Source of the DNA: Syntrophobacteraceae bacterium
Lineage (GTDB): Bacteria > Desulfobacterota > Syntrophobacteria > Syntrophobacterales > Syntrophobacteraceae
Direction: 5' to 3'
NCBI GenBank assembly: GCA_031292215.1
Contig: JARLHO010000092.1
Span: 1 to 36,871, forward strand
DNA length: 36,871 nucleotides
The position numbers and the translations under genes are program-made. The notes beneath the pieces were generated by a model. It did no database searches. It worked only from the letters and a program-made list of their open reading frames with translations, and was not told where the DNA came from. Below are positions 5,185-32,455 of the stretch, piece after piece. Every line of letters starts with the position of its first letter. Positions within the stretch are counted from its first letter, which is position 1.

Positions 5185-7109
5185 TTTTGTTTACTCTCCC
5201 GGGTAATGATCCTGGCTTCTTCAGGGATGGGAGGCGGAACGGGCGCCCCGGAGATCTTGGTCACCGCTCCGAAACGAGACGGGCAGACTTCAAAACAGGT
5301 CCCGCACTTGGTGCACTTATCCTGCTCGATCACGTGAATGCGGTTTTTTCCGCCATCGATCGCATTGGAGGGGCACTGCTTCGAGCAAGTCATACAGGCC
5401 CGGCACTTGTTCGGATCGATGTAGTAGGCGATAAGCTCCTTGCAGGAAAGCGCCGGGCATTTTTTGTCCCGGATGTGGGCCTCATACTCTTCCCTGAAGT
5501 ACTTGAGGGTGCTAAGAAAGGGGTTGGGGGCGGTTCTACCCAAAGCGCAGAGGGCGGCGTAGCCGGCCACCTCGGCAAGCTCTTCGAGCCGCTCGATATC
5601 GCCCTCTTTCCCCTTGCCTTGGGTGATGTTGGTGAGGATTTTTAGCATCTGCCGAATGCCCTCGCGGCACGGGACGCACTTGCCGCACGACTCGTCGGCC
5701 AAAAAGTCGAGAAAATACCTGGCCACATCGACCATGCAGGTATCCTCATCCATAATGATCATGCCGCCCGAGCCCATCATCGAGCCGACCTTGGAGAGCT
5801 CGTCAAAGCCCACCTCGAGATCGAGCATACTCTCGGGGATGCACCCGCCCGAGGGACCTCCGGTTTGGACGGCCTTAAACTTTCTGCCCCCCGGAATTCC
5901 GCCTCCGACCTTAAAGATTATGTCTCTTAGGGTCGTACCCATGGGGACTTCGACAAGGCCGGTGTTGTTGATTTTTCCAACGAGCGAGAAGATCTTGGTG
6001 CCCTTGCTCTTCTCGGTGCCAAACTGGGTGAACCAGTCCGCCCCCCTGGCAATAATTAACGGCACATTGGCCCAGGTTTCCACGTTATTTAAAACGCTTG
6101 GCCTGTCCCAGACGCCCTTTATCGCCGTATGGATATACTTTGGCCTGGGCTCGCCCGCCTTGCCTTCAATGGCGGTCATAAGAGCGCTCGATTCGCCGCA
6201 CACAAATGCCCCCGCCCCCCTGTGGACGGTTACCTTAAAATCAAAGCCCGAGCCGAGGATGTTTTGCCCGAGAAAACCGTACTCGGTTGCCTGCTCGATT
6301 GCGATCATAAGGTTTTCGACAGCCAGGGGATATTCCTGGCGCACATAGACAAAGCCTTGGCAGGCGCCAACGGCCCAGCCGCCAATGATTAGCCCTTCGA
6401 GCACCGAGTGAGGGTTGCCTTCGAGGACCGACCTGTCCATGTAGGCGCCCGGGTCCCCTTCGTCGGCGTTAACGATCACGTATTTTATGTCCCCCGGGGC
6501 GTTACGGGATTCCTCCCATTTCCTGCCCGTGGGAAATCCGCCGCCGCCCCGGCCTCTGAGGTTCGATTTTTTGATTTCCCCGAGCACCTCGACGGCCGTC
6601 ATGTCGCAAAGGGCCTTGGAGAGGGCGGTGTAGCCGCCAAGGGCCATGTAGTCCTCGATGCTTTTGGGATCGATCCTAACGTTACTGCCTATGACGTGGC
6701 GCTGCTGGTTTTTGTAGAAGGGGATCTCGGACTCGCGGGAAGCTTTTTCGCCCGTCGCCCGATCGGCGTAGACCAGCCTTTCGACGATTTCTTTCCCTTT
6801 AAGAGTCTTTGAGACGATTTCCGGGACGTCTTCGGGTTTTACCTGAAGATAGCAGATCTCTTCGGGATAGAGGACCACAACCGGGCCTCTTTCGCAAAAG
6901 CCGTGGCATCCGGTGCCCTTTGTGCCGATATCTACCGCCAGCCCCTGGTTTTCAATTTCGGCCCGAAAAGCGGCAATGACTTCGGCAGCCCCCGAGGCGA
7001 TGCAGCCCGAACCTGCGCATATCAGCACGCAGGGTTTGGCTCTATCCGCTTGAGACTCTATTTCCCGCCTTACCGCCTCCAGTTCACCGGGAGAGTTTAT
7101 CCTTGGCAT
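5181..7109 (-). CDS. bamH: BamH-like flavoprotein (NuoF family) with extra ferredoxin domains
   Basis: This 642-residue NuoF/HydB-type subunit binds NAD(H) and FMN and passes electrons through Fe-S clusters. Visible parts are an N-terminal thioredoxin-fold [2Fe-2S] domain (cysteines 27, 31 or 36, 68 and 72), the glycine-rich NADH/FMN loop RGRGGGGFPTG at 185-195, and an SLBB region. These are followed by the [4Fe-4S] motif SCGKCVPCREG and a C-terminal double [4Fe-4S] ferredoxin (CRACMTCSKQCP and CTKCGTCFEVCP). The extra N- and C-terminal domains are typical of bifurcating hydrogenase and Bam-type proteins rather than of complex I NuoF. It starts 9 bases after bamG and overlaps bamI by 4 bases. 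It would be the site where NADH, or NAD+ in confurcation, meets the complex. Confidence 0.9.
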   Translation of the reverse strand: MPRINSPGELEAVRREIESQADRAKPCVLICAGSGCIASGAAEVIAAFRAEIENQGLAVDIGTKGTGCHGFCERGPVVVLYPEEICYLQVKPEDVPEIVSKTLKGKEIVERLVYADRATGEKASRESEIPFYKNQQRHVIGSNVRIDPKSIEDYMALGGYTALSKALCDMTAVEVLGEIKKSNLRGRGGGGFPTGRKWEESRNAPGDIKYVIVNADEGDPGAYMDRSVLEGNPHSVLEGLIIGGWAVGACQGFVYVRQEYPLAVENLMIAIEQATEYGFLGQNILGSGFDFKVTVHRGAGAFVCGESSALMTAIEGKAGEPRPKYIHTAIKGVWDRPSVLNNVETWANVPLIIARGADWFTQFGTEKSKGTKIFSLVGKINNTGLVEVPMGTTLRDIIFKVGGGIPGGRKFKAVQTGGPSGGCIPESMLDLEVGFDELSKVGSMMGSGGMIIMDEDTCMVDVARYFLDFLADESCGKCVPCREGIRQMLKILTNITQGKGKEGDIERLEELAEVAGYAALCALGRTAPNPFLSTLKYFREEYEAHIRDKKCPALSCKELIAYYIDPNKCRACMTCSKQCPSNAIDGGKNRIHVIEQDKCTKCGTCFEVCPSRFGAVTKISGAPVPPPIPEEARIITRESKQK

Positions 7110-7118
7110 AATTTTCCC

Positions 7119-7571
7119 TTACTCGTAGTTTTTCAACACTTCCAACGCCTTGGCCGGCGCCATCCTGCCGTGAGGCTTGCCGTCGATTTCGATAACCGGC
7201 CCCAGCGCGCAACAACCCAGGCAGTTGACGGTCTCCAGGCTAAATTTCATGTCCAGATCCGTTTCCCCCGGCTTTATTCCGGTGTGGCCCTCCACGGTGT
7301 CCAACACTCGGGAAGCGCCCCGGACATGGCAGGCGGTGCCCATGCAGATATGGATTTCATGGCGACCCTTGGGGACGAGGCTGAAGGCCTTATAAAAGGT
7401 GGCTATGTGCTGTATCCGGGTAAGAGGCACATCGAGGGCCTCGGCAACCATCTGGAGCGCTTCCCCGGGAAGCCAGCGGTTTTCGCTCTGGATGTCGAGC
7501 AGAATTTGAATGAGCGCGCTGGGCTCACCATGATATTTAGCGACGATTTTGTCTATTTGTTCTTTATCCAT
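7119..7571 (-). CDS. bamG: BamG-like NuoE-family [2Fe-2S] subunit
   Basis: This 150-residue thioredoxin-like [2Fe-2S] protein belongs to the complex I 24-kDa (NuoE) family. The four cluster ligands are seen as CMGTAC and NCLGCC, the usual C-x4-C and C-x3-C pattern. It partners the NuoF-type BamH that follows 9 bases later. Upstream, a 128-base spacer holding two palindromic repeats separates it from bamF, so BamDEF and BamGHI could be differentially expressed within the operon. The ATG at 7571 has only a weak ribosome-binding site (TTCGGGAC). The family is certain; the Bam role rests on gene order. Confidence 0.88.
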   Translation of the reverse strand: MDKEQIDKIVAKYHGEPSALIQILLDIQSENRWLPGEALQMVAEALDVPLTRIQHIATFYKAFSLVPKGRHEIHICMGTACHVRGASRVLDTVEGHTGIKPGETDLDMKFSLETVNCLGCCALGPVIEIDGKPHGRMAPAKALEVLKNYE

Positions 7572-7593
7572 AGTTTTTGTCCCGAAGAGTGCT

Positions 7594-7686
7594 TGTTGGG
7601 CTGCGCTGCGCTTAGCCCAACCTACCGGTTCGATCCATGTTCGTGAGTTGAACTTGTTGGGCTGCGCTTTGCTTAGCCCAACCTAC
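7594..7686. repeat. Two short palindromic repeats (GTTGGGCT..AGCCCAAC) between bamF and bamG
   Basis: Two copies, at 7594-7625 and 7655-7686, of a hairpin-forming unit that reads TTGGGCTGCGCT..AGCCCAACCTAC. A third copy is at 17620-17652 and a diverged fourth at 26161-26191. In all cases the unit lies between genes. This is a REP-like element; paired copies inside an operon may form RNA hairpins that affect decay or polarity. Confidence 0.75.
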
Positions 7687-7699
7687 AGAGTGGCCGTAC

Positions 7700-8470
7700 C
7701 TAGGGGGCGGCCACGTAGCGTTTGCAGTTAACGTCGTATCTTACCAGGCCGTGTTTGGACGAAGTGTTTAGGCGCCTGGAGACTTCCGAGGGGCTAAGGC
7801 CCAGGGCCTCGGAGATTTCCGCCGTCGAACGGGGCCCCTGCCGCAGGAGCAGCATGATTTGCCCGATGGCGAGCTTTCCGGCAAGCAGTTCGTCGAAAAG
7901 GCCGTTTACCTCGTCGCTTGCAAAAAATCTTTCGATCTCCGCTTCGGTTTTCAAGGTGATCCGGAGCCGTTCGCGCTCAACCAACCTGATGTAGGGGATA
8001 AGCGAGGTTATGGCCCGCAGCTTGAGATCGAGGCCGTCTTGGGAGATGCCTTCACCCTTTCCGATGGGGCCAAGCTCTTTAATTTTTTCGACAAAAGAGC
8101 TCACATGCTCCGTGTAGAGGCCCGCCTCGGATCCCGAGACAAAGCCGAGCTTCAACCTCTCGGGATTTAGCCCCACGTACTGCATGATCTTTCGGAAAAT
8201 GGACACCATGCTAAGGGCCTGAAAGTTTCCGTTGGTTATATAGTTACATTCATTTAAGTGGCATGCGCCTATAAACACACCGTCGGCGCCCTTGGAGAAG
8301 GCGCGCAACACGAAGGACGGATCCACCCTGCCCGAGCACATGACTCGAACAAGCCTCATTTCGGACGTATATTGTAGTCTGGAAACTCCAGCGAGGTCGG
8401 CAGCGCCGTACGCTCACCAGTGGCAGACAAACCCGATCAGTTTGGGCTTAAATTGAAATCCCGAGCTCAT
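7700..8470 (-). CDS. bamF: BamF-like MvhD/FlpD subunit, probable selenoprotein (Sec at codon 19)
   Basis: This MvhD-type [2Fe-2S] electron-transfer protein is thought to link HdrA to its partner in Hdr/Mvh and Bam complexes. A naive call begins at 8359 and loses the N-terminus. Reading upstream through an in-frame TGA at 8414-8416 gives a start at 8470 (MSSGFQFKPKLIGFVCHW, then U, AYGAADLAG). It has the family's conserved N-terminal cluster region in register with RVMCSGRVDP and ACHLNEC. A GAGGTG ribosome-binding site precedes 8470, 7 bases after the bamE stop, whereas 8359 has no plausible site. With Sec at position 19 the product has 256 residues. The C-terminal third looks like a small winged-helix-like domain (LRQGPRSTAEISEALGLSPSE), unusual for plain MvhD. 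Geobacter BamF is a known selenoprotein, matching this reading. Confidence 0.88.
8379..8391 (-). promoter_or_regulatory. Candidate bacterial SECIS hairpin of bamF
   Basis: Starting 22 bases after the UGA, the mRNA can form a 5-bp stem CUGGA/UCCAG closed around GUU. Bacterial SECIS elements sit directly downstream of the UGA and usually expose GU in a small apical loop, so position and loop fit. Folding was judged by eye only. Confidence 0.45.
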
Positions 8471-8477
8471 AATCACC

Positions 8478-11400
8478 TCACTCCATCGCCGCATCGATTG
8501 CGCTCAAAAGCTCTTCATCGGTAAAGTGCTTGAGCTGTATGGCATTTGTGGGGCACTTCGTGTTGCACACACCGTCCCCCTTGCAAAGGACCGGGTTCAC
8601 CACCGCCTTTCTGCCAAGCGGCGTATTCTCAAACTCGATAGCGCCGTAGTTGCAAACGGTGATGCACGCCCCGCACGAAACACACATGTTTTTGTCGACC
8701 TCGCACACCGACCCCGAGGCGACGACCGTATCGCGGGAAAGAAGCGTAAGCACCCGGCCCGCGGCCCCCAGGGCCTGGCTAACGGATTCTTTCATAAACT
8801 TTGGATAGTGCGCCGCGCCGCATAGATACACACCGTCGGTCCCGAAATCGACCGGCTTTAGCTTCACATGGGCTTCCTTGAAAAAGCCGTCCGGGCTAAG
8901 GGGCACCTTGAAAAGGGATGCCATCTCAGCGGTAGCAGCCGAAGGAAGGACAGCGGCAGACAGTACGAGAAGGTCCGCGTCAATGGCAAGCATCTGTCCC
9001 AGGACCGGATCGGGGGCAGACACCCTCAACACCGGGCGGCCCTCCTCGACAACGGCTTCGACCAGGGGCTTTTGCGAGGGCTCGTAGCGGATAAACTTTA
9101 TGTCCTTTTCGGAGGCCTCCCGGTAGAAGTCCTCTTTTAGACCGTAGGTCCTCATGTCCCGAAAATAGATATGGATATCGGTTTCCGGGTTTATCTCCCT
9201 AAGTTTTAAGGCGTTTTTTATGGCGTGTCCGCAGCAGATGCGCGAGCAGTAGTTTCTGTCCGCCTGACGGCAGCCCACACACTGGATCATCGCAAGGCTT
9301 CGGCAGGAGGTAACGGATTTCTCGCCATCGGCTATTTTTTGCTCCAGCTCGACCTGGGTGAGGACTTTGTCGTCTTGCCCGTAGAGGTATTCGGTCGGCG
9401 TGTAGAGGTCTGCGCCTATGGCCATAACGGCCGCGCCGTGTTTTATGAGCGCGGGGCCGCGTTTGGACTTAATAGTGGTTTGGAAGTTTCCGACATAGCC
9501 CGTGGCATCCGTTATGGCGGCATCGGTATAGACATGGACCGCGGGGTGTTTGTGGACCTTCGAAACGAGGTCTTGCACAACGGCCGCGGGGTCGACTCCT
9601 TCCAGGGTATAGCGCACCTTTTTGGCCATCCCGCCCAGCTCACTTGTCTTTTCGATGAGATAGACCTCGTGTCCCTGGTTGGCGATGGAAAGAGCGCAGG
9701 TCATCCCGGCGATGCCACCGCCTACGACGAGCGCGGCTTTATTTACCGGCAGATCGTATTCCCGCAGGGGCTCAAGGAGACAGGCGCGGGCAACGGACAT
9801 CCGGACGATGTCTTTTGCCTTTTCGGTCGCCTTTTCCTTTTCCTTCGAGTGGACCCAGGAGCAGTGTTCCCGAATGTTTGCCATCTCGAAGAAGTATTGG
9901 TTTATTCCCGCCTCCCGGACGGTGTCACGGAAAAGGGGCTCAAGGGTCCTGGGGCTGCAGGCGGCGACCACCACGCGGTTAAGGCCCTTTTCTTTCGCCA
10001 GATCGGTTATCTGCTGGGCGGAGTTTGTCGCGCACGAAAAGAGCTGTTCCTGCGCGTAGACAACATTTGGCAGGCTAAGAGCATAGTCGACAACCGAAGG
10101 GACGTTGACTATCCGTCCGATATTTGCCCCGCAGTGGCACACGAAGACCCCGATCTTGGGGGTCTCCTCGGAAACATCTCTTTCCGTCGGGTATACCCTG
10201 GCCTTGGAGAGCCCCCCGCGCCTTTTGCGGAGTAACTCTCCTACGCGCGCCCCGGCGCCGCTTGCGCCGAAAACCGACTCGGGGATATCGACCGGTCCCT
10301 GGAAAGCCCCGCTTATAAACACCCCGGCCCGGGTGGTCTCGATGGGATTTACCGGATCGGTTTTGCAAAAGCCGTGAGATTCGAGCTCTATTCCAAACTT
10401 TGCCGCGATCCCCTTAAAATCCTTGGGAGGGTTTAGTCCGATGGACAAAACCACCATATCGAATTCTTCTTCCTTTACCCCATCATCGTTTGTCGCATAG
10501 CGGATGGTGATATTTTTACTTCCCGGGATCTCTTTTCCAATGGTCACGTAGCTGCGGATAAACCTCACCCCCGGCAGACTCTCGGCTTTATCGTAGTATC
10601 TTTCGAAGTCTTTGCCGTAGGCGCGGATGTCGTTGTGGAATATGGTGCATTCCGACTCCGGGCTGTGGTCTTTGGTCAAAATCACCTGCTTTTGCGTATA
10701 GGTGCAGCAGACAGCCGAGCAGTAGGTGTTTGCGCCCTCAAGAATCTGGCGAGACCCCACGCACTGAATCCAGGCGATATTTTTGGGGTGCTTATTGTCC
10801 GAGGGTCGCAGCACCTCGCCCTGGAAAGGCCCGGTGGAGCTTAGCAGCCGTTCGTAGTCAAGGCTCGTTATAACGTTTGCATACTCTCCGTAGCGGTATT
10901 CCGCCCTCACCCTCGGGTCGAAGGGCTCGATGCCCGGGGAAAGAATGATAGCCCCGATGTTTATCTGCTTTTTCCGCGGCCGCTGGTTGAAATCGATCGC
11001 GTCGTTTTTGCAAACGGCGGAGCAGATCCGGCATTTTTTCTCCTTCAGGTAGATGCAGCTCTCGTCGATATAGGCGACAAGAGGGATCGCCTGGGGGAAG
11101 TAGATATGGATGGCCTTGTTTGTCGATATCTTCTGGTTGAAAACATCCGGGTATGTCACCGGGCAGTTCTCGACGCAGGTAGTACAGCCCGTGCACCTAT
11201 CTTCCAGGATGTACTTGGGTTTTTTTGTCAACTCGACCGTAAAGTTTCCAGCTTCGCCTTCGACGCTATCGACTACGGTATTGGTCAAAACTACAATATT
11301 TGGATGCCGGCCGGCCTCGACCAGTTTTGGAGAAAGAATTCACATCGAGCATTCATTGGTCGGGAATGTCTTGTCGAGCTGGGCCATGTGGCCTCCGATG

Positions 11401-11564
11401 CTCGGCGATTTCTCGACCAGGTAGACTTTAAAACCCGCAGTGGCAAGATCGAGGGAGGCCTGAATACCGCTTATGCCTCCACCGACGATCATGACGTCTC
11501 CGAACTCGCTGCCGCAAAGACCTTTGAGAATCTGTTCTCCGATATTTCCCAGTTCTTTTTTCAC
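8478..11564 (-). CDS. bamE: BamE-like double HdrA flavoprotein, probable selenoprotein (Sec at codon 75)
   Basis: This HdrA-family FAD/Fe-S protein is the likely electron-bifurcating hub of the complex. Two open frames (11564-11340 and 11288-8478) join in one frame through a TGA at 11340-11342. The context reads [18 protein letters not shown], where HdrA proteins usually carry cysteine (CS-x-C-ILxPKM). The joined product has 1028 residues. It has a first FAD domain (GGGISG at 28-33), a double ferredoxin (cysteines 124-134 and the CRICSAVC group) and an HdrA N-terminal domain restarting near 470 ([10 protein letters not shown]). A second FAD domain (GGGIAG near 615) and a C-terminal double ferredoxin near 952-1008 follow. 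It is therefore a duplicated or fused HdrA. It lies 9 bases after bamD and 7 before bamF. Frameshift or decay is unlikely because frame and family conservation persist across the UGA. Confidence 0.9.
11311..11324 (-). promoter_or_regulatory. Candidate SECIS-like stem of bamE
   Basis: Beginning 15 bases after the UGA, CUGG and CCGG can pair around the loop UCGAGG. The position suits a bacterial SECIS but the stem is short, and the overlapping GGCCGGCC palindrome offers rival folds. Judged by eye. Confidence 0.3.
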
Positions 11565-11573
11565 TTCTATCCC

Positions 11574-12722
11574 CTAAATGACTTCAGCAATGATTTCCGT
11601 GATGTCCCTGATCTCGATCGCTTCGCCGTCTTCCCGGTTCAGCCTGGAGTCCTCGAAATTGGTGATGCAATACGGACAGGAAGTGGCCAGCACCCGGGCC
11701 CCGACCTCTACTGCCTGATCGAGGCGAAGATCTGAAAACCTCTCGCCCTTGGGCGTTTCCATCCAAATCCTGCCGCCTCCGCCACCGCAGCACAGGCTGT
11801 CGAGGCGACACTCGGACATCTCGACAAGTTCGAGCCCGGCTTTTTTCAAAACCTCCCGCGGCTCATCGAAAATTCCGTTATGTCTTCCCAGGTAGCAGGG
11901 ATCGTGATAGGTGACCTTTTTTGCGTACTCGCCACTTACCACAAGCCGTCCCTCTCTCATCAGTTCGAACAAATACTGGGCGATATGGACCACCTCGAAG
12001 TTCACCATGAACTCGGGATACTCGTTTTTAAACGTATGGTAGCAGTGGGGCGAGGAGACGAGGACTTTTTTCACCCCGGCGTCGATAAAGTTCTTTATGT
12101 TTTCCTTGGCAAGACGTTTAAAGAGTTCCTCATCACCGGTTTTTCGGATGCTTTCCCCGCAGCAGCTCTCTTTTGAACCGAGGATGCCAAAATCCACCCC
12201 GGCTTTGTTTAAGATGGCGGCCGTCGCTTTTGCGACCCGTTTCATCCGGGGGTCGTAGCTCAGGTAGCAGCCGGGAAAGTAGAGGATCTCCATGCCCTCG
12301 GAAAAACTCGGGACAGACGCGCCTTCGGCCCAGTTCCCTCGTTTGGACCGCTCCTCGTTAAGGGGGTTCCCCTCGCCGACAAGGCTTGCGCCAATCGCGC
12401 GAACGGATTTTACAGCACTTGGAAACACCCCGTACTCGGTAGCAATCCGCCTAAGGGCCACCCCGGACTCAATTTGCTTAACGCCCCGGGGGCACCTCTG
12501 GGGACATCTTCCGCAGGTGGTGCATCGCCAGATGTCTTCGGTTTCGATGTCGGTTAAACCGAAGGTCGCCTGCCGGACAATTTTACGCATACTAAAATTG
12601 CGCACCCTGTTCCACGGGCAGACCGTATCGCATATACCGCACTGGTAACAGTATTTGAAGGCGTCTCCGCCGTTCGCCTTTATTACCTCGATAATTTCCT
12701 TTTCAGGGGTTACAGTCTCCAT
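11574..12722 (-). CDS. bamD: BamD-like HdrD/GlpC-type iron-sulfur protein with two CCG domains
   Basis: This 382-residue heterodisulfide-reductase-like subunit has an N-terminal double [4Fe-4S] ferredoxin (CYQCGICDTVCP near 25 and CTTCGRCPQRCP near 68). Two cysteine-rich CCG domains follow (SCCGE..PHCYHTF and DPCYLGRH..LCCGGGGGRIW..SCPYC), which in HdrB/HdrD bind noncubane [4Fe-4S] clusters. No membrane segment is seen, so it is a soluble relay. It is the first large gene of the operon, followed after 9 bases by bamE. The ATG at 12722 is preceded by CAGGAAAG. In Geobacter the BamDEF module resembles HdrABC-MvhD; here D, E and F are in the same order. Confidence 0.88.
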   Translation of the reverse strand: METVTPEKEIIEVIKANGGDAFKYCYQCGICDTVCPWNRVRNFSMRKIVRQATFGLTDIETEDIWRCTTCGRCPQRCPRGVKQIESGVALRRIATEYGVFPSAVKSVRAIGASLVGEGNPLNEERSKRGNWAEGASVPSFSEGMEILYFPGCYLSYDPRMKRVAKATAAILNKAGVDFGILGSKESCCGESIRKTGDEELFKRLAKENIKNFIDAGVKKVLVSSPHCYHTFKNEYPEFMVNFEVVHIAQYLFELMREGRLVVSGEYAKKVTYHDPCYLGRHNGIFDEPREVLKKAGLELVEMSECRLDSLCCGGGGGRIWMETPKGERFSDLRLDQAVEVGARVLATSCPYCITNFEDSRLNREDGEAIEIRDITEIIAEVI

Positions 12723-13186: not shown

Positions 13187-14365
13187 TTAGTCTTTGTTGG
13201 CTTTTTTGATACCCAGGGCATCGGTTGCGAGAATCATTTTCATGATGTTGGTCGCACCCTCGAGTATCTTGTAGACCTTGCCGTCACGAAGGATTCTGGC
13301 CATGGGGTATTCGTTTGAGTATCCGTAGGCGCTAAGGACGTCGAGGCCAAGGTTTGGAACTTCGTCCGCGGCCCTTGAGGCATAGAACTTGGCAAGGCAG
13401 GTCTCGCGCATATTGTTTACCATGCCGCGGTCTTTCTGGATGGCGCATCTCCAGGTAAGGGCACGTGCGGCCTCGGTTTCGGCAACCATCCGGGCGATGG
13501 TTTCCTGCACCATCTGGTATTCGGCGATGGGACGGCCGAACTGGCGGCGCTCGTTGGCGTATTTGATGGATTCGTCAAGGGCGGCCTGGCAGGTTCCAAC
13601 GGCGCCGGCGGCAGCCGAAAGGCGCGTGCTGATGAGTTCCTTCATGAGGTATTGGAAGCCCTTGCCTTCTTCTCCAAGGCGATAGGAGGCGGGAACCCTC
13701 ACGTCTTCCATGATTACTTCACCGGTCGGGCAGGCCCAGATCCCGAGCTTATCCTTGATCGCGACGGTGGATACGCCGGGCAGATCCATATCCATTACGA
13801 AAACGCTCATGCCCTTGTGTTTTGCGGCCTTGTCGGTCATGGCGAAAACGACGCACACATCGGCGACCGGGGACCATGTGATCCACATTTTGCGCCCGTT
13901 AAGGATGTAATGGTCACCGTCTCTTACAGCGGTTGAGGACATGGAGGCCGTATCCGAACCGGTGTCGGGTTCGGTGATTCCAAAGCAGCCGATCTTTTTG
14001 GCCGATACGAGGTCGGGAATATACTTTCTTTTGAGCTCCTCGCTACCCCATTTGAGAATGGACATGGAGGTGCCCATGGTCTGCATGTTGAAGCCAACGC
14101 GCAAAGACCCGGAGACTCTTCCGATCTCTTCGGTAACGATCGCGTGGGCGAGGTAACCCATGCCGTTTCCGCCGTATTCTTCGGGGACCGGGCAGCCGAA
14201 AAGGCCGAGTTCCGCCATCTTGTCGACCAGGTCGCGCTGCCACCTGTGGTTTTTTTCATCCTCATCGACGTGCGGGGCGATTTCCTTGTCGGCGAATTTG
14301 CGAACGGTGTCGCGCAAAATAATGAGATCTTCGGACAATTCCACATCGTATCTATCACTGCTCAT
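13187..14365 (-). CDS. Acyl-CoA dehydrogenase (aromatic-pathway or glutaryl-CoA-type)
   Basis: This 392-residue flavin acyl-CoA dehydrogenase oxidises a CoA ester at the alpha-beta position and passes electrons to ETF. Family signatures are the FAD/substrate loop CFGITEPDTGSD and the W-I-T-W segment. The helical C-terminal domain has RRQFGRPIAEYQMVQ, and a probable catalytic glutamate lies near 369 in KILEGATNIMKM. The start at 14365 is chosen because AAGGAG lies 9 bases upstream; the longer frame to 14404 adds a non-family leader. It closes the operon that contains oah and had. Its substrate is likely an intermediate after ring opening (pimelyl- or glutaryl-CoA type) or an alicyclic acyl-CoA such as cyclohexanecarboxyl-CoA. 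Sequence reading alone does not decide. Confidence 0.9.
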   Translation of the reverse strand: MSSDRYDVELSEDLIILRDTVRKFADKEIAPHVDEDEKNHRWQRDLVDKMAELGLFGCPVPEEYGGNGMGYLAHAIVTEEIGRVSGSLRVGFNMQTMGTSMSILKWGSEELKRKYIPDLVSAKKIGCFGITEPDTGSDTASMSSTAVRDGDHYILNGRKMWITWSPVADVCVVFAMTDKAAKHKGMSVFVMDMDLPGVSTVAIKDKLGIWACPTGEVIMEDVRVPASYRLGEEGKGFQYLMKELISTRLSAAAGAVGTCQAALDESIKYANERRQFGRPIAEYQMVQETIARMVAETEAARALTWRCAIQKDRGMVNNMRETCLAKFYASRAADEVPNLGLDVLSAYGYSNEYPMARILRDGKVYKILEGATNIMKMILATDALGIKKANKD

Positions 14366-14672
14366 GGTAGTTGGCTCCTTGAAGGTTTTCCGTACGATAT
14401 CCACCGGGACGGCGTCGCCCCCCCGGAACTTTTCTCAGCCGCGCCCGGCGGCAGGGGCGGAGCGGCGGCGTATATAGCGCGCAATATATGTGGTATCGGG
14501 GGCCAATCGCCGCCAAAGACGACCTTACCCGAGGTTACGCCCGGGATCGGGAAAAGACTCGATGGCGGCAGGCCCGATATTTCCCTGTACACGTTCTCAT
14601 GCAGTCTCGACAGTCCGAGTCCCCCCGGAAACCCTCCTCGACCACCACCTACTGTTTGCGTTCGCGGGCAGA
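14366..14672. other. Gene-free spacer between DUF35 protein and acyl-CoA dehydrogenase
   Basis: These 307 bases hold no convincing gene on either strand. An AT-rich island (GTATATAGCGCGCAATATAT near 14468-14487) stands out in GC-rich surroundings and might contain an internal promoter for the dehydrogenase, but no -35/-10 pair is clear. Confidence 0.5.
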
Positions 14673-15104
14673 CTAAGCTCTATTAAAAACGTAAGTCAAC
14701 TGGCCGTTTGCGGTCCGCGACACAGCGGCCTTAAGGGTCATTCCGACCGCCAGGTCATCCCGGGGCACGGACCCGTCGATACGCCCGAAGACCTTGTAGG
14801 CGCCGTAGTCGACCAAAGCGATCGTGTAGGGGACTTCATCGGTAAAGCCTGTGGGCGCGTACTGCAGGGTCGAATAGCTAACAAGCTTACCAGCCCCGGT
14901 GACTTCAAACCATTCCATTTCCGCGGTAAGGCAATCGTGACACTGAGCGCGGGGGGGAAAGAAGTTTTTCCCGCACTTAACGCACCGGGCGCCCATCAGT
15001 TTACCGTTTTGCAGATGGCCGATAAAATCGTTTACCCGGGTTACGGAGGCAAAGCTCACCGTCCCGAATTCAGAGAATCTGGTGTCCAATTCACTTTTTG
15101 CCAT
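14673..15104 (-). CDS. DUF35 Zn-ribbon/OB-fold protein, thiolase partner
   Basis: This 143-residue protein has a rubredoxin-like zinc ribbon (CVKCGKNFFPPRAQCHDC near 40-57) followed by an OB-fold (GKLVSYSTLQYAPTGF..). DUF35/DUF35_N proteins form tight complexes with SCP-x-type thiolases and thiolase-like synthases, for example BbsA with BbsB in benzylsuccinate degradation. The thiolase gene lies directly upstream in the same operon, separated by a strong hairpin. The protein is therefore probably required for activity or CoA-ester binding by that thiolase. ATG at 15104; no strong ribosome-binding site is visible. Confidence 0.88.
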   Translation of the reverse strand: MAKSELDTRFSEFGTVSFASVTRVNDFIGHLQNGKLMGARCVKCGKNFFPPRAQCHDCLTAEMEWFEVTGAGKLVSYSTLQYAPTGFTDEVPYTIALVDYGAYKVFGRIDGSVPRDDLAVGMTLKAAVSRTANGQLTYVFNRA

Positions 15105-15117
15105 GCTCGTGCTCCAT

Positions 15118-15167
15118 AGGGAGGCCGAAAGTCGGGGAAAATTTTGACTCCCCCACTTTCGGCTCCC
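15118..15167 (-). promoter_or_regulatory. Long hairpin between thiolase and DUF35 genes
   Basis: An interrupted 18-bp stem (AGGGA, then GCCGAAAGT, then GGGG, pairing with complements at 15149-15167) closes on an A/T-rich loop. It begins 14 bases before the DUF35 start codon on the minus strand. There is no following U-tract. It is likely an intra-operon RNA structure affecting processing or DUF35 translation. Confidence 0.55.
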
Positions 15168-15182
15168 TGATATCCGTTCCGG

Positions 15183-16355
15183 TTAGTCGACGCCAAAAAT
15201 TGTTACGTTACCGTAGAGCCCCACGCCGCCGATATTGTGAACGAGCCCGAAGACGGGGTCTTTCACCTGAATATCTCCGGCCTCTCCGCGGAGCTGCATG
15301 ACGATGGTGCGAATCTGCGAGCCGCCGGTAGCCCCGATGGGATGTCCCTTGGACAGGAGGCCTCCGTCGACGTTAACCGGAATGCGCCCTTCCTTGTAGG
15401 TCTCCTTGGACCGGATGAGGTCTTTGCCCTCGCCGGGCTTGGCAAATCCGAGGTTTTCGTATGCCATCATCTCAGCGATCGTAAAGCAGTCGTGGACTTC
15501 GGCAACGTTGATATCGGCAGCCGTAATGCCGGCCATCTTGTAGGCCTGCCTGGCGGCCTCCTCGGCTGCCGCAAGGCCGAAGAGCCTGTCTCGGCCGGCC
15601 ATGTTTACCGGGGCCGAAGCGGCGCCGACTCCCTTTATCCAGACGGGCTTTCTGGAAAAAGAGCGCGCCTTTTCCTCGGAGCAAACGATCACGCAGGAAC
15701 TGCCATCGGCGTTGGCACAGCAGTCGCCGCCGCGAAGAGGCGTGGCAACAGGGGCGCCGAGGAAGCTCGAAGGATCCATGATCTGCTCGAGCAAAACGGG
15801 TTTTCGATAGACGGCAAGCGGGTTTAGCTGTCCATAGGTTGCGGCCTTGACGCGAATGAGCGCCAAATCTTCCGGGGTCGTCCCAAACTTTGCCATGTGC
15901 GCTCGGGCGTGCATGGCGTAATAGGCGGGCATCATGGTCCCGAATGGGGACTCCCACTGAATGTCCGCGCCCCGGCCCATGCGCTCCTGCGACTCGACCG
16001 AGGTAAGCTGCGACATGATCTGGAAGCCTACGACCAGCACGACGTCGTGGAGACCCGAGGCCACGAGAGAGTAGGCGAGCCTTAAGCCCGTGCTGCTAGA
16101 CGAGCACAGCGTCTCGGCATAGAAGGTGGGCTGGGGATTTAGCCCCAGGTACTCGGCGATGACTCCTGCCGGAGACCTTTGCTTATCGTATTCCGGCGCC
16201 GAACAGACAACGGTTGCGTCGATATCGGTTCCGACAATCCCGGCATCCTTCATCGCTTCGCTATAGCTATCAAACACCAACTCACGGATCGACCCCGGAT
16301 AGGTGCGCACAAAGGTGCTTTGCCCGACGCCGATTACTCCAACTTTTCCACTCAT
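15183..16355 (-). CDS. SCP-x-like thiolase / acetyl-CoA acetyltransferase family protein
   Basis: This 390-residue thiolase-fold enzyme would cleave a 3-ketoacyl-CoA with CoA. The nucleophilic cysteine is C84 in ETLCSSSSTG. The active-site histidine is H338 in GHPIGATG, and HDCF and HNIGGVG follow the SCP-x/BbsB-type pattern, where the second cysteine of classical thiolases is missing. Its partner is the DUF35 protein encoded just downstream. It sits 33 bases after oah, in an operon of ring-opening enzymes, so a role in beta-oxidation of the 3-hydroxypimelyl-CoA product is plausible. ATG at 16355 with CTGGAGGGTTATT upstream (GGAGG 6 bases away). Confidence 0.88.
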   Translation of the reverse strand: MSGKVGVIGVGQSTFVRTYPGSIRELVFDSYSEAMKDAGIVGTDIDATVVCSAPEYDKQRSPAGVIAEYLGLNPQPTFYAETLCSSSSTGLRLAYSLVASGLHDVVLVVGFQIMSQLTSVESQERMGRGADIQWESPFGTMMPAYYAMHARAHMAKFGTTPEDLALIRVKAATYGQLNPLAVYRKPVLLEQIMDPSSFLGAPVATPLRGGDCCANADGSSCVIVCSEEKARSFSRKPVWIKGVGAASAPVNMAGRDRLFGLAAAEEAARQAYKMAGITAADINVAEVHDCFTIAEMMAYENLGFAKPGEGKDLIRSKETYKEGRIPVNVDGGLLSKGHPIGATGGSQIRTIVMQLRGEAGDIQVKDPVFGLVHNIGGVGLYGNVTIFGVD

Positions 16356-16388: not shown

Positions 16389-17525
16389 TTATTCCTTAGG
16401 TTTGCCAAGCACTTCGGCAAACATGTCATAGTCCCAGGTCTTGCACTCCGCAATATTTTGGCGAAACTTGATGAAATCAGCCACATCGGTCCCGGTTATC
16501 TTCTTCGTATTGAAGGCGCCGAACCCAAGGAACGCTTCCCCGCCCATGTTGGCGGCAAGCCAGTGGCGGTGCTCGTTTTTGGTGGTATCCCAGAAGAACT
16601 TTTTCTTTTGCCTGATGCCGTCGATAGATTTAATAAGGCATCCCGGGAAAAGGTTTGCAAACTTCCACACTACCGACTGGACTTCTTTGTCGAGCAGTTC
16701 GAAGTCGGAGTTGGCCTGGTGTTTTTTAAGCAGTTCCCGGCCTTCGGCCAAATCCTTTCCGGTTTTGGACTCGCCGTAGACGATCTCGCCGTCATCGACC
16801 CATTTGTCCCAGACAACCGTCGGGTTTCTCATCCACTTGCCGTCCACCTTGAGAACGGGAACGACTTTGGAGACAAGGTTTTTGGCCTTCATCTTATAGG
16901 CGGACCACATCTCGCAGGACACGCAGTTCCACATGGCGTCTTCGGCCGAAAGGTACCAGGGCAGAAAGTCCGAGGAACCGCCAACAGGGGCGGAACCGTG
17001 GCGGGGGCCGGCCTGGCCGTAGATGGCAAGATCTGAGGAAATAGCGATATCGCACGCCATCCCGATTTCCTGTCCGCCGGCGACCCGCATGCCGTTTACG
17101 CGGCAGACCACCGGTTTTTTGCACATGAGGATCGAGTCTACCATGTGGTTGAACAGCTCCATGTACTGGCCGTATTCGTCACATCTCATGGAGTAATATT
17201 CGCTGTATTCCCGGGTGTTTCCGCCGGTGCAAAAAGCGTAGGGGCCGGTGCCGGTAAAGACGACGCAAATGACGCTCCTGTCCAGAGAGGCATTTTCGAA
17301 GCCGGCTATAACGCCTTTTACCATTTCCGTGGTGTAGGAATTGTACTGGGCAGGGTTATTTAGCCGAATCCATGCCGTGTACAGACCTTCGACCACCTTT
17401 CCCGAGAGGTCCGTAAGAGGTTTTTTCTCGTATACCACGCAAGGGGCTTCCGTCCCCCAGTGAATATCCGAGTGCAGAAGGTGGTCTTTGTGTTCCTGAT
17501 CCCTTGGCATCCATTCAAGTGCCAT
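16389..17525 (-). CDS. oah: 6-oxocyclohex-1-ene-1-carbonyl-CoA hydrolase (BamA/Oah)
   Basis: This enoyl-CoA hydratase superfamily enzyme hydrates and hydrolytically opens 6-oxocyclohex-1-ene-1-carbonyl-CoA to 3-hydroxypimelyl-CoA. The gene is widely used as a marker for anaerobic aromatic degradation. The 378-residue length fits BamA. The crotonase core appears as FTGTGPYAFCTGGNTREYSEYY and RVNGMRVAGGQEIGMACDIAI (oxyanion hole region), with family-typical AIYGQAGPRHGSAPVGGSSDFL. ATG at 17525 has AAGGAG (..TATAAGGAGATATATCG) upstream. had lies upstream in the same operon, and the thiolase pair and dehydrogenase lie downstream. Confidence 0.96.
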   Translation of the reverse strand: MALEWMPRDQEHKDHLLHSDIHWGTEAPCVVYEKKPLTDLSGKVVEGLYTAWIRLNNPAQYNSYTTEMVKGVIAGFENASLDRSVICVVFTGTGPYAFCTGGNTREYSEYYSMRCDEYGQYMELFNHMVDSILMCKKPVVCRVNGMRVAGGQEIGMACDIAISSDLAIYGQAGPRHGSAPVGGSSDFLPWYLSAEDAMWNCVSCEMWSAYKMKAKNLVSKVVPVLKVDGKWMRNPTVVWDKWVDDGEIVYGESKTGKDLAEGRELLKKHQANSDFELLDKEVQSVVWKFANLFPGCLIKSIDGIRQKKKFFWDTTKNEHRHWLAANMGGEAFLGFGAFNTKKITGTDVADFIKFRQNIAECKTWDYDMFAEVLGKPKE

Positions 17526-17685: not shown

Positions 17686-18789
17686 CTAGAAATCGGGAAC
17701 CAGAACGATCCGCCGGTCGGGGGGCGTATGGTGGGCGTCCTCGAAAGCCTCCCGTATCTGGCTCATCGGCCGGGTCTGAACGAAGGGGCCAACCGAAATC
17801 TTGCCGGTTACAACCATTTCGAGCACCTGAGGATAATACTCGGGCAAACATCCCCAGGTCCCGATGATCTCGGCGTCAAAGGCCATGAGGCGGCTCAGCA
17901 TGTATTCGGTTTTCCCCATGCCAAAGCCGATGATGATCAGTTTGCCGGTAAAGCTTAAGAGAGTTAGCGCGGTTTCCTGGCCGGGCTTGCTCCCGGTCGC
18001 CTCGAAAATCTTCCACCCGTAGCCGGGAAGCCCCTGCTGCTCGCGGATTTTCTTTACTTCCGCAGATACCTCGGCCGGACCCTTTCCGCTCGCATTTATC
18101 ACGAAGTCGGCCCCGTACTTTAGCATCTTCCGGAGGCGTTCCTCGACGATGTCAACGGCGATAACCGTTCCCGCCCCGAGCCCTTTGGCCGTTTGAACCA
18201 TGTACTGTCCGACGCCTCCGACCCCGATAACGATGACGTTATCGCCCACTTCAAGGCCCGCACGCTTTGCGGCCTGAAAGGGAGTGGTGACCGCGTCGGC
18301 CACAACCGAGAGTTCTTCGAGCGGAATACTTCCCCGTTTTTTAATTTCGCAAAGATCCAGGGAGGGAACGGGAATATGGCTTGCAAAACCGCCGTAGACA
18401 CCCGTGCTGTTTCCGGGCATTTTCTGATTGAGGCACCTGTTGCCGCGCCGGGTCTTGCACAGCTCGCACTGCCGGCAGGGCATGACCGCGGGGACAAGGA
18501 CTTCTTTTCCCACCCATTTTTTATCGCCTGCCACAACGGTCCCGGAAATCTCGTGCCCCAGGATCAGGGGGGGCTTGCAAACCGTTGGCACTCCGTCGTA
18601 GAAGTAGCCAAGATCGGTGTGGCACACTCCACAGCCTGCAACCTTTACGAGAACTTCGCCCTCTTTTAGCTCGGGAACCGGAATCTCCACCAGTTCGAGC
18701 CTCCCGGGGATCTTTTCTCCAGTCTCCTTGTTCTTGGCGGTCGGTTGGACCATCTGCCAAGCCTTGATCTTATCGGGCACTGTTGACAT
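17686..18789 (-). CDS. had: 6-hydroxycyclohex-1-ene-1-carbonyl-CoA dehydrogenase (Had/BamQ)
   Basis: This zinc-type medium-chain alcohol dehydrogenase oxidises 6-hydroxycyclohex-1-ene-1-carbonyl-CoA with NAD+, feeding Oah. The 367-residue product shows catalytic zinc ligands in CGVCHTDLG and GHEISG. The structural zinc loop CRQCELCKTRRGNRC and the Rossmann motif GVGGVGQ are also present. Start at 18789 (MSTVPDKIKAW), with GGAAGGAG about 6 bases upstream; the extended frame to 18858 adds a basic leader without family support. It is first in the operon had-oah-thiolase-DUF35-acyl-CoA dehydrogenase. Pairing with Oah makes the Had call safer than a generic alcohol dehydrogenase. Confidence 0.92.
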   Translation of the reverse strand: MSTVPDKIKAWQMVQPTAKNKETGEKIPGRLELVEIPVPELKEGEVLVKVAGCGVCHTDLGYFYDGVPTVCKPPLILGHEISGTVVAGDKKWVGKEVLVPAVMPCRQCELCKTRRGNRCLNQKMPGNSTGVYGGFASHIPVPSLDLCEIKKRGSIPLEELSVVADAVTTPFQAAKRAGLEVGDNVIVIGVGGVGQYMVQTAKGLGAGTVIAVDIVEERLRKMLKYGADFVINASGKGPAEVSAEVKKIREQQGLPGYGWKIFEATGSKPGQETALTLLSFTGKLIIIGFGMGKTEYMLSRLMAFDAEIIGTWGCLPEYYPQVLEMVVTGKISVGPFVQTRPMSQIREAFEDAHHTPPDRRIVLVPDF

Positions 18790-18867
18790 TTTTCTCCTTC
18801 CTGAAAAGCTCTGCGGCACGGGCCGCCGCGGCGAGCGTACAAGATATGGATTGAACATCCCTAAATA

Positions 18868-19187: not shown

Positions 19188-20063
19188 ATGGTCCTGCCCG
19201 GATTTGAATTCGACGAGGCGGCAACCGTTGCGCAAGGGTGTCTTATTTTGTCCGAATTCGGGGCAAGGGCCAAGGTGATAGCGGGGGGGACCGATGTAGC
19301 GGTTGCGATGAAAAAGAAGCTGCTCGCCCCCGAGCGGCTGGTATCCATAGCGAGGATCCCCGAGCTCAAAAGAATCGATTCCTCCCCTGGGATGTTACGA
19401 CTTGGTCCCTGCGTAACGATTGGAAAGATCGGTGCATCGGGGGAAATCGACAAAAGATGGGGGGCGATTTGCGCGGGGGCAAGGGCGCTTGGGACCCCAT
19501 CGGTTAGAAACCGCGCAACGGTTGGCGGAAATCTCGGGAGTGCTAGGCCTGCCGCGGACATGGCGCCTTCGCTTATGGCCTATGGCGCACGGGTCATTCT
19601 CACCAGCAAAGCGGGAGAGCGGGTGGTGTCTTTAGAAAATTTTTTCCATGGGCCGGGACTAAGTGAAATGGCCTCCGACGAGATCCTGACGCAAATCGAG
19701 GTGGACGCGCCTCCCCCGTTTGCCGGGGCAAGCTATGGGAGCCTTTCCGTTCGATCGCGTGACTGCAACATCGTAAATGTGGCCTCTTTTCTGATGTTGG
19801 AAGGCCCGGGCGGGCAGATAAAGGGGGCAAGGATCGTTTTGGGGTGTGTCGGCCCGACGCCGCGAAGGGCGCTTGGGGCCGAAAGGGCCCTTATCGGCGA
19901 AAAGGGTGGGGAGGCTTTGTTTACAAGGGCCGCCCAAGCCGCGATGGTTGATTGCGCGCCCATAGACGACTTCCGGGGATCGGCCGGCTACAGGAAAGAG
20001 ATGGTGGGGGTGCTTGCGCAAAGGAGCCTTTGCGCGGCGTTTCAAGAGGCGCTAAAGAGCTGA
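19188..20063 (+). CDS. Molybdenum hydroxylase FAD subunit (HcrB/CoxM family, without the [4Fe-4S] insert)
   Basis: This FAD-binding subunit belongs to a xanthine-oxidase-family enzyme and passes electrons between FAD and the [2Fe-2S] subunit. The 291-residue product carries the two FAD motifs, AGGTDVAV near 32-39 and ATVGGNLGSARPAADM near 107-122. The start at 19188 follows GAGGAG by 7 bases; the longer frame to 18882 runs through repeat DNA. Genuine 4-hydroxybenzoyl-CoA reductase beta subunits have an insertion of about 40 residues binding a [4Fe-4S] cluster. Here the segment after the second motif runs straight on (SLMAYGARVILTSKAGER), so that cluster is absent. It may thus be a relative with a different substrate or electron direction. 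The context of aryl-CoA genes still suggests an aromatic CoA ester. Confidence 0.85.
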   Translation: MVLPGFEFDEAATVAQGCLILSEFGARAKVIAGGTDVAVAMKKKLLAPERLVSIARIPELKRIDSSPGMLRLGPCVTIGKIGASGEIDKRWGAICAGARALGTPSVRNRATVGGNLGSARPAADMAPSLMAYGARVILTSKAGERVVSLENFFHGPGLSEMASDEILTQIEVDAPPPFAGASYGSLSVRSRDCNIVNVASFLMLEGPGGQIKGARIVLGCVGPTPRRALGAERALIGEKGGEALFTRAAQAAMVDCAPIDDFRGSAGYRKEMVGVLAQRSLCAAFQEALKS

Positions 20064-20574: not shown

Positions 20575-22932
20575 GTGGGCGGCTTTGAGGTTGTAAACTC
20601 GAGGGCCATAAGAGTCGATGCGCCGGCAAAGGCTACGGGGCGAGCCCAATACGTAGACGACATGAAGATTTCGGGAATGCTCCACGGGGCCATGCTGCAA
20701 AGTCCTCTTTCGCACGCGCGGATAATGGAGATCGATGTTTCGGCCGCAGCGCGCCTTCCGGGCGTAAAGGCGATCGTTTCAGCGCGGGAGGCGGGTCTTG
20801 TAGCGTTTGGCGTAAGCCCGGCTCGCTATGACGAAACTCTTTTTTGCCACGACAAGGTAAGGCACCACGGAGACAATGTGGCAGCGGTAGCCGCTGTGGA
20901 CATGGAAACGGCCATGCACGCTCTTTCTCTTATAAAAGTGGAATACGAGGAGCTTCCAGCGCTTCTAACGATCGAGGAGGCCATGGCCGAGGGCGCCCCT
21001 CTTATCCACGAAGGGTTTCCTCGAAATATCGGCGCAGAGGTTCACCAGGAATTTGGAAATGTCAAAGAGGCCTTTAAGGAATGCGACCTCATAAAGACCA
21101 CGACTTTTGTCAACAAGCGCCAGGACGCCGCCTTTCTAGAACCCCAGGGATGCATCGCCGACTTCGATATTTTCGGAAACCTGACGCTTTATACTTCGAC
21201 CCAGTCGGTCCACTACGTCCAGAGGACGGCGGCCATGGTCCTGAGGTTGCCCCTAGGGAAAGTGCGGGTCGTAAAGCCCTGTGTGGGAGGGGGATTTGGA
21301 CCCAAGGCGGCAGCCAATCACCTGGAGCTTGCAGCAAGCCTTCTTTCGATGAAGACCACAAAGCCGGTCAAGATGACCTTCGATAGAGAACAGGTCTTCC
21401 TGCACGGCCGCTCGCGCCATCAATTTTTCCATAAATTCACCACCGGGGTAAAAAAAGACGGCTCGATTTTGGCACTGGACCATGAGTGCTATGTAAACGG
21501 GGGGGCCTACTCAAGCTTTGGGATGGCCACGGTCTACTATGCCGGGGCGCTGCTCGGGGGCCCCTACAGACTGGCCAACATGAGATATGAGGGCTACCGC
21601 GTCTACACAAACCTTCCGGCGTGCGGGGCGCAGCGGGGGCACGGGGGAGTGGCCGCGCGCGCCGGCTTTGAACAGCAACTGGACATGATAGCCGTTGAAC
21701 TGGGGATGGATCCTTTCGAATTTCGAAAGAAAAACGCTCTGGCAGCAGGAGATGCGACCTGCAACGGCATGGACATCGGAAGCTTCGCCATGGGGGAGTG
21801 TCTGGAAGCGGTAAAGAACACCTCAGGGTGGAGCGGGAAGAAGGGCAAACTCCCCCGGGGCAAGGGTATCGGCATGGCCTGCGGCTTTTTCCCCACGGGG
21901 GCGGGTTATCCGGTGTACCCCTCAGAGACCTGCCAGGCCACGGTGCTGGTAAAACTTTCCGAGGACGGTGGGGCGGCGCTGGTATTTTCGGCCTCGGCGG
22001 AAATCGGGCAGGGCTCGGACACCGCCCTTGCCATGATTGTGGCCGAGGCGCTGGGGATCCCGCTGGAGATGGTGAGAGTTCGGTCGGGGGATACCGATTT
22101 CGGGGTAGACCTTGGAGCGTATGCCAGCCGGCAGACCCTTATGAGCGGCCAGGCGGCAAAAGAGGCGGCAGAAGAGGCAAAGCGCCAGGTTTTGGAAGTT
22201 CTGGGCGAGCAGTTGGGCGTAGCCGTAGAGGAGATGGATATCAAAAACGGCGTAGTGGAATTTAAGAGGGATAAACCGGATCCGGGGCCGCTTAGGACCC
22301 GCTATATCAAGGAACACCGAGGGTTTAGGGACAATCCGGCAAAAGAGGACACGTTGTCTTTCCGGGAAGCTTCCCGGATTGCTTTTTTAAGCCGCGGGAC
22401 AATTGTAGGCAAGGGGTGGTACAAGCCTCCCGGGCCTTCGGGGGGATTTACGATTGCAACGGCCATCGGCTCTCCCGCCTACGGCTGTTCGGCCCAGGTG
22501 GTGGAGCTTTCGGTCGATGAACAGACCGGCAAGATCACAATCGAGCGGGTAAGCGATGCCCACGATTGCGGACTGGCCATAAACCGCACCTCGGTTGAAG
22601 CTCAGATGCAGGGCTCGGTTTCCATGGGGCTTGGCGAGGCGCTGTTTGAAGAGGTAAAATTCGATTGCCGGGGCCGGCTCATCAACGCAGACCTTGCCGA
22701 GTACAAAATTCCCACCTCCCTGGACATGCCCGAGGTGAAATCGGTTATTGTCGAAAGCAGGGAACCAAACGGCCCCTACGGGGCAAAAGAAGTGGGAGAG
22801 GGGGCGATAATGGCCACCATTCCGGCTATCCTGAACGCAGTGTTCGATGCGACGGGAGTGAGGATCTTCGAACTTCCGCTGACACCCGAGAGGGTTTACC
22901 AGGCGCTAAAGGAAGATAGGGGGAAAGTATGA
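20575..22932 (+). CDS. Molybdenum hydroxylase large subunit (HcrA/HbaC-like, candidate aryl-CoA dehydroxylase)
   Basis: This 785-residue molybdopterin-binding catalytic subunit belongs to the xanthine oxidase family. The glycine-rich Mo-cofactor loop VGGGFGPK ends at 244, a CGAQRGHGG segment contacts the cofactor, and the invariant active-site glutamate is probably E742 in GAKEVGEG. The GTG at 20575, immediately after the preceding stop, is the start; GGGGAG lies 8 bases before it. Length and motifs resemble 4-hydroxybenzoyl-CoA reductase alpha (about 770 residues), which reductively removes the para hydroxyl. Other family members act on nicotinate, purines or CO. Nearby bam and oah genes favour a hydroxybenzoyl-CoA, but the FAD partner lacks the diagnostic insert, so specificity stays open. 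Confidence 0.88.
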   Translation: MGGFEVVNSRAIRVDAPAKATGRAQYVDDMKISGMLHGAMLQSPLSHARIMEIDVSAAARLPGVKAIVSAREAGLVAFGVSPARYDETLFCHDKVRHHGDNVAAVAAVDMETAMHALSLIKVEYEELPALLTIEEAMAEGAPLIHEGFPRNIGAEVHQEFGNVKEAFKECDLIKTTTFVNKRQDAAFLEPQGCIADFDIFGNLTLYTSTQSVHYVQRTAAMVLRLPLGKVRVVKPCVGGGFGPKAAANHLELAASLLSMKTTKPVKMTFDREQVFLHGRSRHQFFHKFTTGVKKDGSILALDHECYVNGGAYSSFGMATVYYAGALLGGPYRLANMRYEGYRVYTNLPACGAQRGHGGVAARAGFEQQLDMIAVELGMDPFEFRKKNALAAGDATCNGMDIGSFAMGECLEAVKNTSGWSGKKGKLPRGKGIGMACGFFPTGAGYPVYPSETCQATVLVKLSEDGGAALVFSASAEIGQGSDTALAMIVAEALGIPLEMVRVRSGDTDFGVDLGAYASRQTLMSGQAAKEAAEEAKRQVLEVLGEQLGVAVEEMDIKNGVVEFKRDKPDPGPLRTRYIKEHRGFRDNPAKEDTLSFREASRIAFLSRGTIVGKGWYKPPGPSGGFTIATAIGSPAYGCSAQVVELSVDEQTGKITIERVSDAHDCGLAINRTSVEAQMQGSVSMGLGEALFEEVKFDCRGRLINADLAEYKIPTSLDMPEVKSVIVESREPNGPYGAKEVGEGAIMATIPAILNAVFDATGVRIFELPLTPERVYQALKEDRGKV

Positions 22933-30571: not shown

Positions 30572-30772
30572 GCGCGTGTTCAGCCGGAAGTTCCAGATAG
30601 CAGCCGCCCCTTTCCCCGATTAGAAATTCCCCTTCGTAGCGCAGGCTGCAATCGATAAGACAACTATAGGGATTACCCTTGCCGAGACTGCTCGCAGGGG
30701 AACTCGGTAGTCCGTAGATTTTGGCCCCGGTCGATTTCCACCCACCAGGGGGGGGGGAGGCACGTGACTCAG

Positions 30773-32318: not shown

Positions 32319-32430
32319 TTCCAGCATAGCAAAGAGGTTGGCCGAAGCGTTTCGTGGCCATTTCCGCCAATGTATCGGTTTTTTTGTCCAAATGGCGACT
32401 ATTCACTTGTCATTTTGCAATGTTTTAGCT

Positions 32431-32455
32431 ATTTTGTTCACCTCAGTGAATTTTA
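32431..32455. promoter_or_regulatory. Candidate IclR operator upstream of iclR
   Basis: A 25-base site with perfect inverted half-sites TTCAC-N4-GTGAA at 32437-32450. It matches the site at 30547-30571. At about 47 bases before the regulator start it is well placed for autoregulation. A separate GCCATTT/AAATGGC inverted pair lies at 32357-32396. Confidence 0.6.

Follow-up and report, generated by a model that had tools for sequence, protein, structure and literature searches.

The question raised by this locus is whether a molybdenum enzyme of the 4-hydroxybenzoyl-CoA reductase (4-HBCR) kind can work reductively with an FAD subunit that lacks a [4Fe-4S] cluster. The [4Fe-4S] insert of HcrB has been taken as what lets an enzyme of the xanthine-oxidase (XO) type run backwards, its cluster presumably relaying electrons from ferredoxin towards the FAD. 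In the window, by which we mean the whole stretch of 36,871 nucleotides analysed here, the genes for the FAD, small and Mo subunits of such an enzyme are divergent from an opposite-strand run of benzoyl-CoA pathway genes:

5181..12722, minus strand: BamD-H-like electron-transfer genes (CCG/Fer4, HdrA-like, FlpD-like, NuoE-like and NuoF-like)
13187..16355, minus strand: acyl-CoA dehydrogenase, OB-fold (ChsH2) protein and thiolase, in one gene run
16389..17525, minus strand: gene matching TIGR03200 (542.2 bits, cut-off 464.45)
17686..18858, minus strand: 6-hydroxycyclohex-1-ene-1-carbonyl-CoA dehydrogenase (BamQ/Had), the divergent neighbour (TIGR03201, 473 bits, cut-off 338.65)
19188..20063, plus strand: FAD subunit of the CoxM/Xdh type without the [4Fe-4S] insertion, 291 aa
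20101..20574, plus strand: small subunit with two [2Fe-2S] clusters (Fer2, Fer2_2; motifs CGLGDCGSC..C and CGFC..CRC)
20575..22932, plus strand: Mo subunit of the HcrA clade, 785 residues (Tyr322 = HcrA Tyr326, Glu742 = HcrA Glu726)

The FAD subunit gene is a real open reading frame, with an ATG start preceded by GAGGAG, and the BamQ/Had and BamA/Oah genes of the window are both above their NCBIfam cut-offs. The gene order recalls that of the bam genes of Geobacter metallireducens, as tabulated in PMC1924859, and the Bam names used for positions 5181..12722 are suggested by resemblance to that order. The BamD-H-like genes are present, and no BamB/BamC-like gene (AOR family) was recognised among the window proteins scanned. 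In a same-genus relative (L066), the arrangement is kept as far as the contig reaches, with proteins 73-94% identical. Downstream in the window lie a PaaK-like ligase and an IclR regulator (30764-33386); PaaK-like genes of other genomes, 44-49% identical to this one, accompany the clade described below, mostly with transporter genes. An AMP-binding ligase (2979-4703) follows the NuoF-like gene, and a 414-residue reading frame (33765-35009) has no NCBIfam match at 1e-20.

The sequence-only reading held that the FAD subunit has no [4Fe-4S] insertion, and our alignments bear this out. Against 1rm6_B, 7 residues replace the 45 between residues 116 and 160 of Thauera HcrB, and Cys122, Cys138, Cys146 and Cys155, all four present in HcrB and presumably the ligands of its [4Fe-4S] cluster, are all missing from the window subunit. 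The HcrB profile (TIGR03195) matches over positions 3-115 and again over 159-318 but skips the insertion between them, and FAD_binding_5 and CO_deh_flav_C are both over their cut-offs. The four-Cys insert is found in none of the 33 FAD subunits of the clade, a count that leaves out loci L080, L085 and L086, where the stretch holds no full FAD subunit; as all 33 are without it, its absence is not a matter of chance. Cluster ligands at other positions of the subunit, which would have told against the claim, did not turn up and are ruled out: the clade FAD subunits hold 1 to 11 Cys, each of the seven in the window subunit is present in just 1 to 24 of the 33 members, and no Cys is conserved elsewhere in the alignment of the 33. 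Conserved FAD-binding and catalytic motifs, on the other hand, are kept.

The same reading had called the subunit HcrB-like, which does not hold, as it is of another FAD-subunit type whose nearest counterpart is CutM of CODH. It scores higher to XdhB than to HcrB among the NCBIfam models (170.8 vs 92.5 bits), groups with the FAD subunits of the non-4Fe kind, and has CutM as its closest solved relative by sequence (133.6 bits). The predicted fold (mean pLDDT 91.2) agrees: the best match is CutM (1ffu_C; Z 39.8, rmsd 1.8, 287 of 287 residues aligned), and the comparison with 1rm6_B (Z 34.8, rmsd 2.0, 280 of 323 aligned) leaves 43 residues of the latter unaligned.

By its sequence, the catalytic subunit is nevertheless close kin of HcrA. 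Among solved structures it matches Thauera HcrA best (1rm6_A, 558.7 bits), with the quinoline enzyme 1t3q next at a distance (285.7 bits), and its best NCBIfam model is TIGR03194 with 856.6 bits, compared with 571.6 for XdhA and 397.9 for pucD. The Mo-subunit tree groups it with Thauera HcrA and with the cluster-bearing enzyme's HcrA from contig 71 of the same genome (SH-aLRT 99); a second tree recovers the same clade with bootstrap/SH-aLRT support of 100/99, Thauera HcrA forming a long branch. Of the two residues that we take to belong to the active site of HcrA, the first, Tyr326, is invariant across the canonical (4/4), window-clade (36/36) and sister-group (7/7) rows, its place being taken mostly by Leu or Val in the 57 others; the second, Glu726, presumably catalytic, is found in all 47 HcrA-clade rows, among them 36/36 of the window clade, and in 39 of the 57 others. 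A literature search for the names of these residues found no paper. The structure model of the Mo subunit has a pLDDT of 82.8. All three subunits stay under the 4-HBCR cut-offs, the scores for TIGR03193, TIGR03194 and TIGR03195 being 184.8, 856.6 and 92.5 bits vs 257.8, 994.55 and 404.55; the cluster-bearing set on contig 71 is also under the alpha and beta cut-offs. Judged on sequence, the window enzyme most likely works like HcrABC; we do not file it as HcrABC since it is without the [4Fe-4S] cluster.

The enzyme is far from unique to this bacterium. Matches at E<=1e-190 were found in 48 of the 395 sampled genomes of the phylum: 41 belong to the clade (a match of at least 62% identity), and 7 have only a sister group of 45-48% identity, likewise without the insert; within the class, a limit of 1e-180 gave matches in 5 of 55 genomes. 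The window genome (G000) carries two clade copies, one in the window and one on contig 147, with Mo subunits 73% identical. It also carries, on contig 71 (L071:7110-10418, minus strand), a cluster-bearing HcrA/HcrB set, whose HcrB scores 309 bits and has the four Cys, so that both FAD types coexist in one genome. The contig 147 copy (L065:8856-12729, minus strand) adjoins an IclR regulator, with the housekeeping genes TsaD and KsgA beside it. The genes of clusters c34, c20 and c15, which we take to be Mo-hydroxylase accessory genes, lie beside the contig-71 set, and the same clusters flank the same-genus copies. Among the sister-group loci (L167-L173), a PaaK-like gene lies beside one and Mo-accessory-like genes (c15, c20, c34) beside two.

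Turning to the relatives, we read 41 neighbourhoods, six of them comparison sets from outside the clade (L071-L076). An AMP-ligase (cluster c3) is present in 10 of the 41, and most of these neighbourhoods also have UbiD, UbiX, UPF0261 and PpsA/PpsB-like genes (a PEP-mobile-domain protein of 616 residues and one with PPDK_N); the representative UbiD scores above the cut-off for the phenylphosphate carboxylase beta subunit (519.0 vs 468.95 bits). Several other neighbourhoods combine a TRAP-type transporter, identified by eye, with a PaaK-like ligase. In five genomes, the FAD subunit gene has upstream of it a gene for a conserved protein of some 121 residues with no Pfam match (cluster c9; L092:7175-7540, also L089, L093, L095 and L096).

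Searched across 51 genomes, the carboxylase beta subunit is over its cut-off in 29, that is, in 23 of 44 clade-bearing genomes, with 21 lacking it, and in 6 of the 7 with the sister group only. Within the 23 genomes, a TIGR02724 gene lies at most 16 kb from 15 of the 27 clade Mo genes, the remaining 12 not being near one, and from 2 of the 123 other XO-family Mo genes among the matches listed; the association has a Fisher p of 1e-11, to be read with the rows sharing phylogeny and the 16 kb distance having been set after the loci were seen. The 15 genomes with a carboxylase-adjacent clade gene span eight different family codes. Of the two exceptions, one (G291:C106:22088) belongs to a cluster-bearing XO enzyme that shares a contig with the phenol-type genes of its genome, and a second XO enzyme is therefore present in that genome. 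Among the matches listed, 21 of the 23 genomes have no Mo subunit outside the clade scoring above 780 bits to HcrA, G046 and G048 being the exceptions, whereas the cluster-bearing kind of contig 71 scores 917 to 929 bits; the twenty Mo subunits fetched as ranking next in these genomes all adjoin insert-free FAD subunits. A fragment of an FAD subunit at a contig edge in G095 may be of the insert type. BamA is over its cut-off in 16 of the 17 genomes tested (the 15, G396 and G000), with none in G249.

The strongest single case is G326, a genome in one contig and 98% complete, in which the clade gene lies 11 kb from the phenylphosphate carboxylase gene and BamA is over its cut-off. Its FAD_binding_5 genes number exactly five, all with a length that leaves no room for the insert, and in the HcrB profile search of this genome the matches end at 115-116 or begin at 153-159, none spanning the insert. 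Should G326 convert phenol or aniline to benzoyl-CoA by way of an XO-family enzyme, the enzyme in question lacks the HcrB-type cluster.

On this evidence, we lean towards reading the enzyme as a para-substituted-benzoyl-CoA reductase, removing OH or possibly NH2, that is fed at its FAD, most likely by NADH. We infer the substrate, direction and donor, and also that the window copy acts like its relatives in phenol operons. The para substituent would leave the benzoyl-CoA derivative, yielding benzoyl-CoA for the adjoining bam pathway. Electrons would enter directly at the FAD and travel via both [2Fe-2S] clusters to Mo, the OH of the aryl-CoA leaving, with no [4Fe-4S] relay involved; with an FAD subunit of another type, one that lacks the cluster, the reaction may proceed in its absence. 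NADH is suggested as the donor by analogy with Ucdh (UcdhABC) of Enterocloster bolteae, an XO-family enzyme whose nearest characterised relative is 4-HBCR: its described cofactors include FAD and two 2Fe-2S clusters, and once purified it removes a hydroxyl group from urolithin C with NADH as the donor (PMC12771579). In the window genome itself, the phenol genes are missing, no phenylphosphate carboxylase beta subunit being found at E<=1e-80, and the contig-71 HcrA/HcrB set is already present; the window copy may therefore have another substrate, such as a different aryl-CoA, or serve 4-hydroxybenzoate that comes from elsewhere. Of the two options offered by the sequence-only reading, another electron path fares better than a hydroxylase of a different aryl-CoA or of a heterocycle: a Mo subunit of the HcrA clade and relatives in operons of the phenol or aniline type point to a reductase.

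The most serious competitor, which we nonetheless consider unlikely, is an oxidative hydroxylase of an aryl-CoA or aromatic acid, taking its oxygen from water and passing electrons out through the FAD to NAD+ or another acceptor. It fits an FAD subunit of the type found in CODH and in xanthine and quinoline dehydrogenases, the usual oxidative arrangement, as well as a genome already equipped with a cluster-bearing HcrAB; it fits poorly with the HcrA-type Tyr of a Mo subunit in the HcrA clade and with operons of relatives that appear to run from phenol to 4-hydroxybenzoate and on to the CoA ester, a route whose next step calls for a reduction. Quite improbable, too, is that the clade or a part of it is a 4-aminobenzoyl-CoA reductase, performing the reductive deamination of anaerobic aniline degradation. 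The ani cluster of Desulfatiglans anilini combines PpsA/B-like kinases, PpcB and a ligase with genes annotated as 4-hydroxybenzoyl-CoA reductase (03875, 03876), and these two were detected on aniline or 4-aminobenzoate but on neither phenol nor benzoate (PMC7500099); TIGR02724, moreover, does not separate phenol from aniline operons. Yet the D. anilini reductase, set beside the clade by description only, may itself be of the cluster-bearing kind, and a clade found in 41 of 395 genomes is widespread for so rare a substrate. An N-heterocycle hydroxylase of the nicotinate, quinoline or xanthine type merely standing beside bam genes is very improbable: the FAD and FeS subunits do score best to Xdh and glyceraldehyde dehydrogenase models, but the Mo subunit clearly prefers HcrA over XdhA, pucD and the quinoline enzyme, as given above.

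We think it similarly far-fetched that an HcrB ancestor lost its insert in place and that the enzyme is now degenerate or inactive. The nearest characterised kin, the contig-71 type and Thauera, do bear the insert, but the conserved FAD-binding and catalytic motifs speak against decay, and the phylogenies against loss in place. Trees were made of 104 Mo and 104 FAD subunits of Desulfobacterota, with Thauera HcrAB, E. coli PaoBC and E. coli XdhAB included; locus L140, a duplicate entry for the L074 stretch, was removed beforehand, and HcrB matches among named plasmid references, 32 to 37% identical among the matches listed, were left out. With the insert columns removed, 4Fe and non-4Fe FAD subunits form the two sides of one branch (SH-aLRT 98), a split repeated in a careful 38-row tree (98/97). 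On the Mo tree, the insert label needs seven changes, six of them forced by the starred branches. Forcing the FAD subunits of the HcrA clade into one group was rejected (p-AU 7.4e-5), the group having been named after the first tree and Thauera HcrB being a long branch. Since the FAD tree splits in two while the Mo tree needs several switches, whole FAD subunits have probably been exchanged between Mo-subunit lineages; either FAD type, cluster-bearing or cluster-less, may have been the ancestral one in the HcrA clade.

The insert is common among XO-family FAD subunits: it is present in 40 of the 104 collected, most of which adjoin Mo subunits outside the HcrA clade, and it is therefore no marker of 4-HBCR. 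Neither is it one of reductive direction, as the sequence-only reading had supposed: PaoB, a subunit of the E. coli aldehyde dehydrogenase, has the four-Cys insert at the same place as HcrB, and the reductive Ucdh, run with NADH, is described as carrying just FAD and a pair of 2Fe-2S clusters (PMC12771579). The sequences point to an FAD subunit that can be exchanged as a module within the enzyme family, which makes it unsafe to annotate direction or substrate from one subunit.

A clade of the HcrA kind without the insert, in the same pathway position, makes the idea of backward running accessible to direct experiment. In its general form, which we put forward tentatively, a sizeable group of anaerobic Desulfobacterota would reduce 4-hydroxy- (or 4-amino-)benzoyl-CoA with an HcrA-type catalytic subunit that has taken on a CoxM-type FAD subunit by exchange, NADH driving the reaction without a [4Fe-4S] relay. 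If true, the [4Fe-4S] cluster would not be needed for reversed electron flow in the XO family and would serve ferredoxin docking instead. None of the listed titles and abstract openings, which leave aside the subscription literature, reported a 4-HBCR without the cluster. The clade supplies candidate genes for unassigned reductases of anaerobic phenol and aniline breakdown.

Set against known systems, the window enzyme shares with HcrABC of Thauera aromatica (1rm6) a Mo subunit of the same HcrA clade, 40-43% identical across the window clade, a small subunit with two [2Fe-2S], Tyr326 and Glu726, and an aromatic-CoA gene neighbourhood; it differs in an FAD subunit of the other type, without the 45-residue [4Fe-4S] insert, and in an extra stretch around residues 563-590 of its Mo subunit. 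CutM of CODH (1ffu_C) is the closest solved relative of the FAD subunit in both sequence and fold, but CODH oxidises CO and its Mo subunit is remote from that of the window. The putative 4-aminobenzoyl-CoA reductase of D. anilini has PpsA/B-like kinases, PpcB and a CoA ligase nearby, as do many clade members; its substrate derives from aniline, and the comparison is one of gene context (PMC7500099). Likened by description (PMC12771579), Ucdh is a fellow member of the XO family and performs a reductive dehydroxylation para to an ester with NADH as the donor, though its substrate is no CoA ester and it serves another host in another role.
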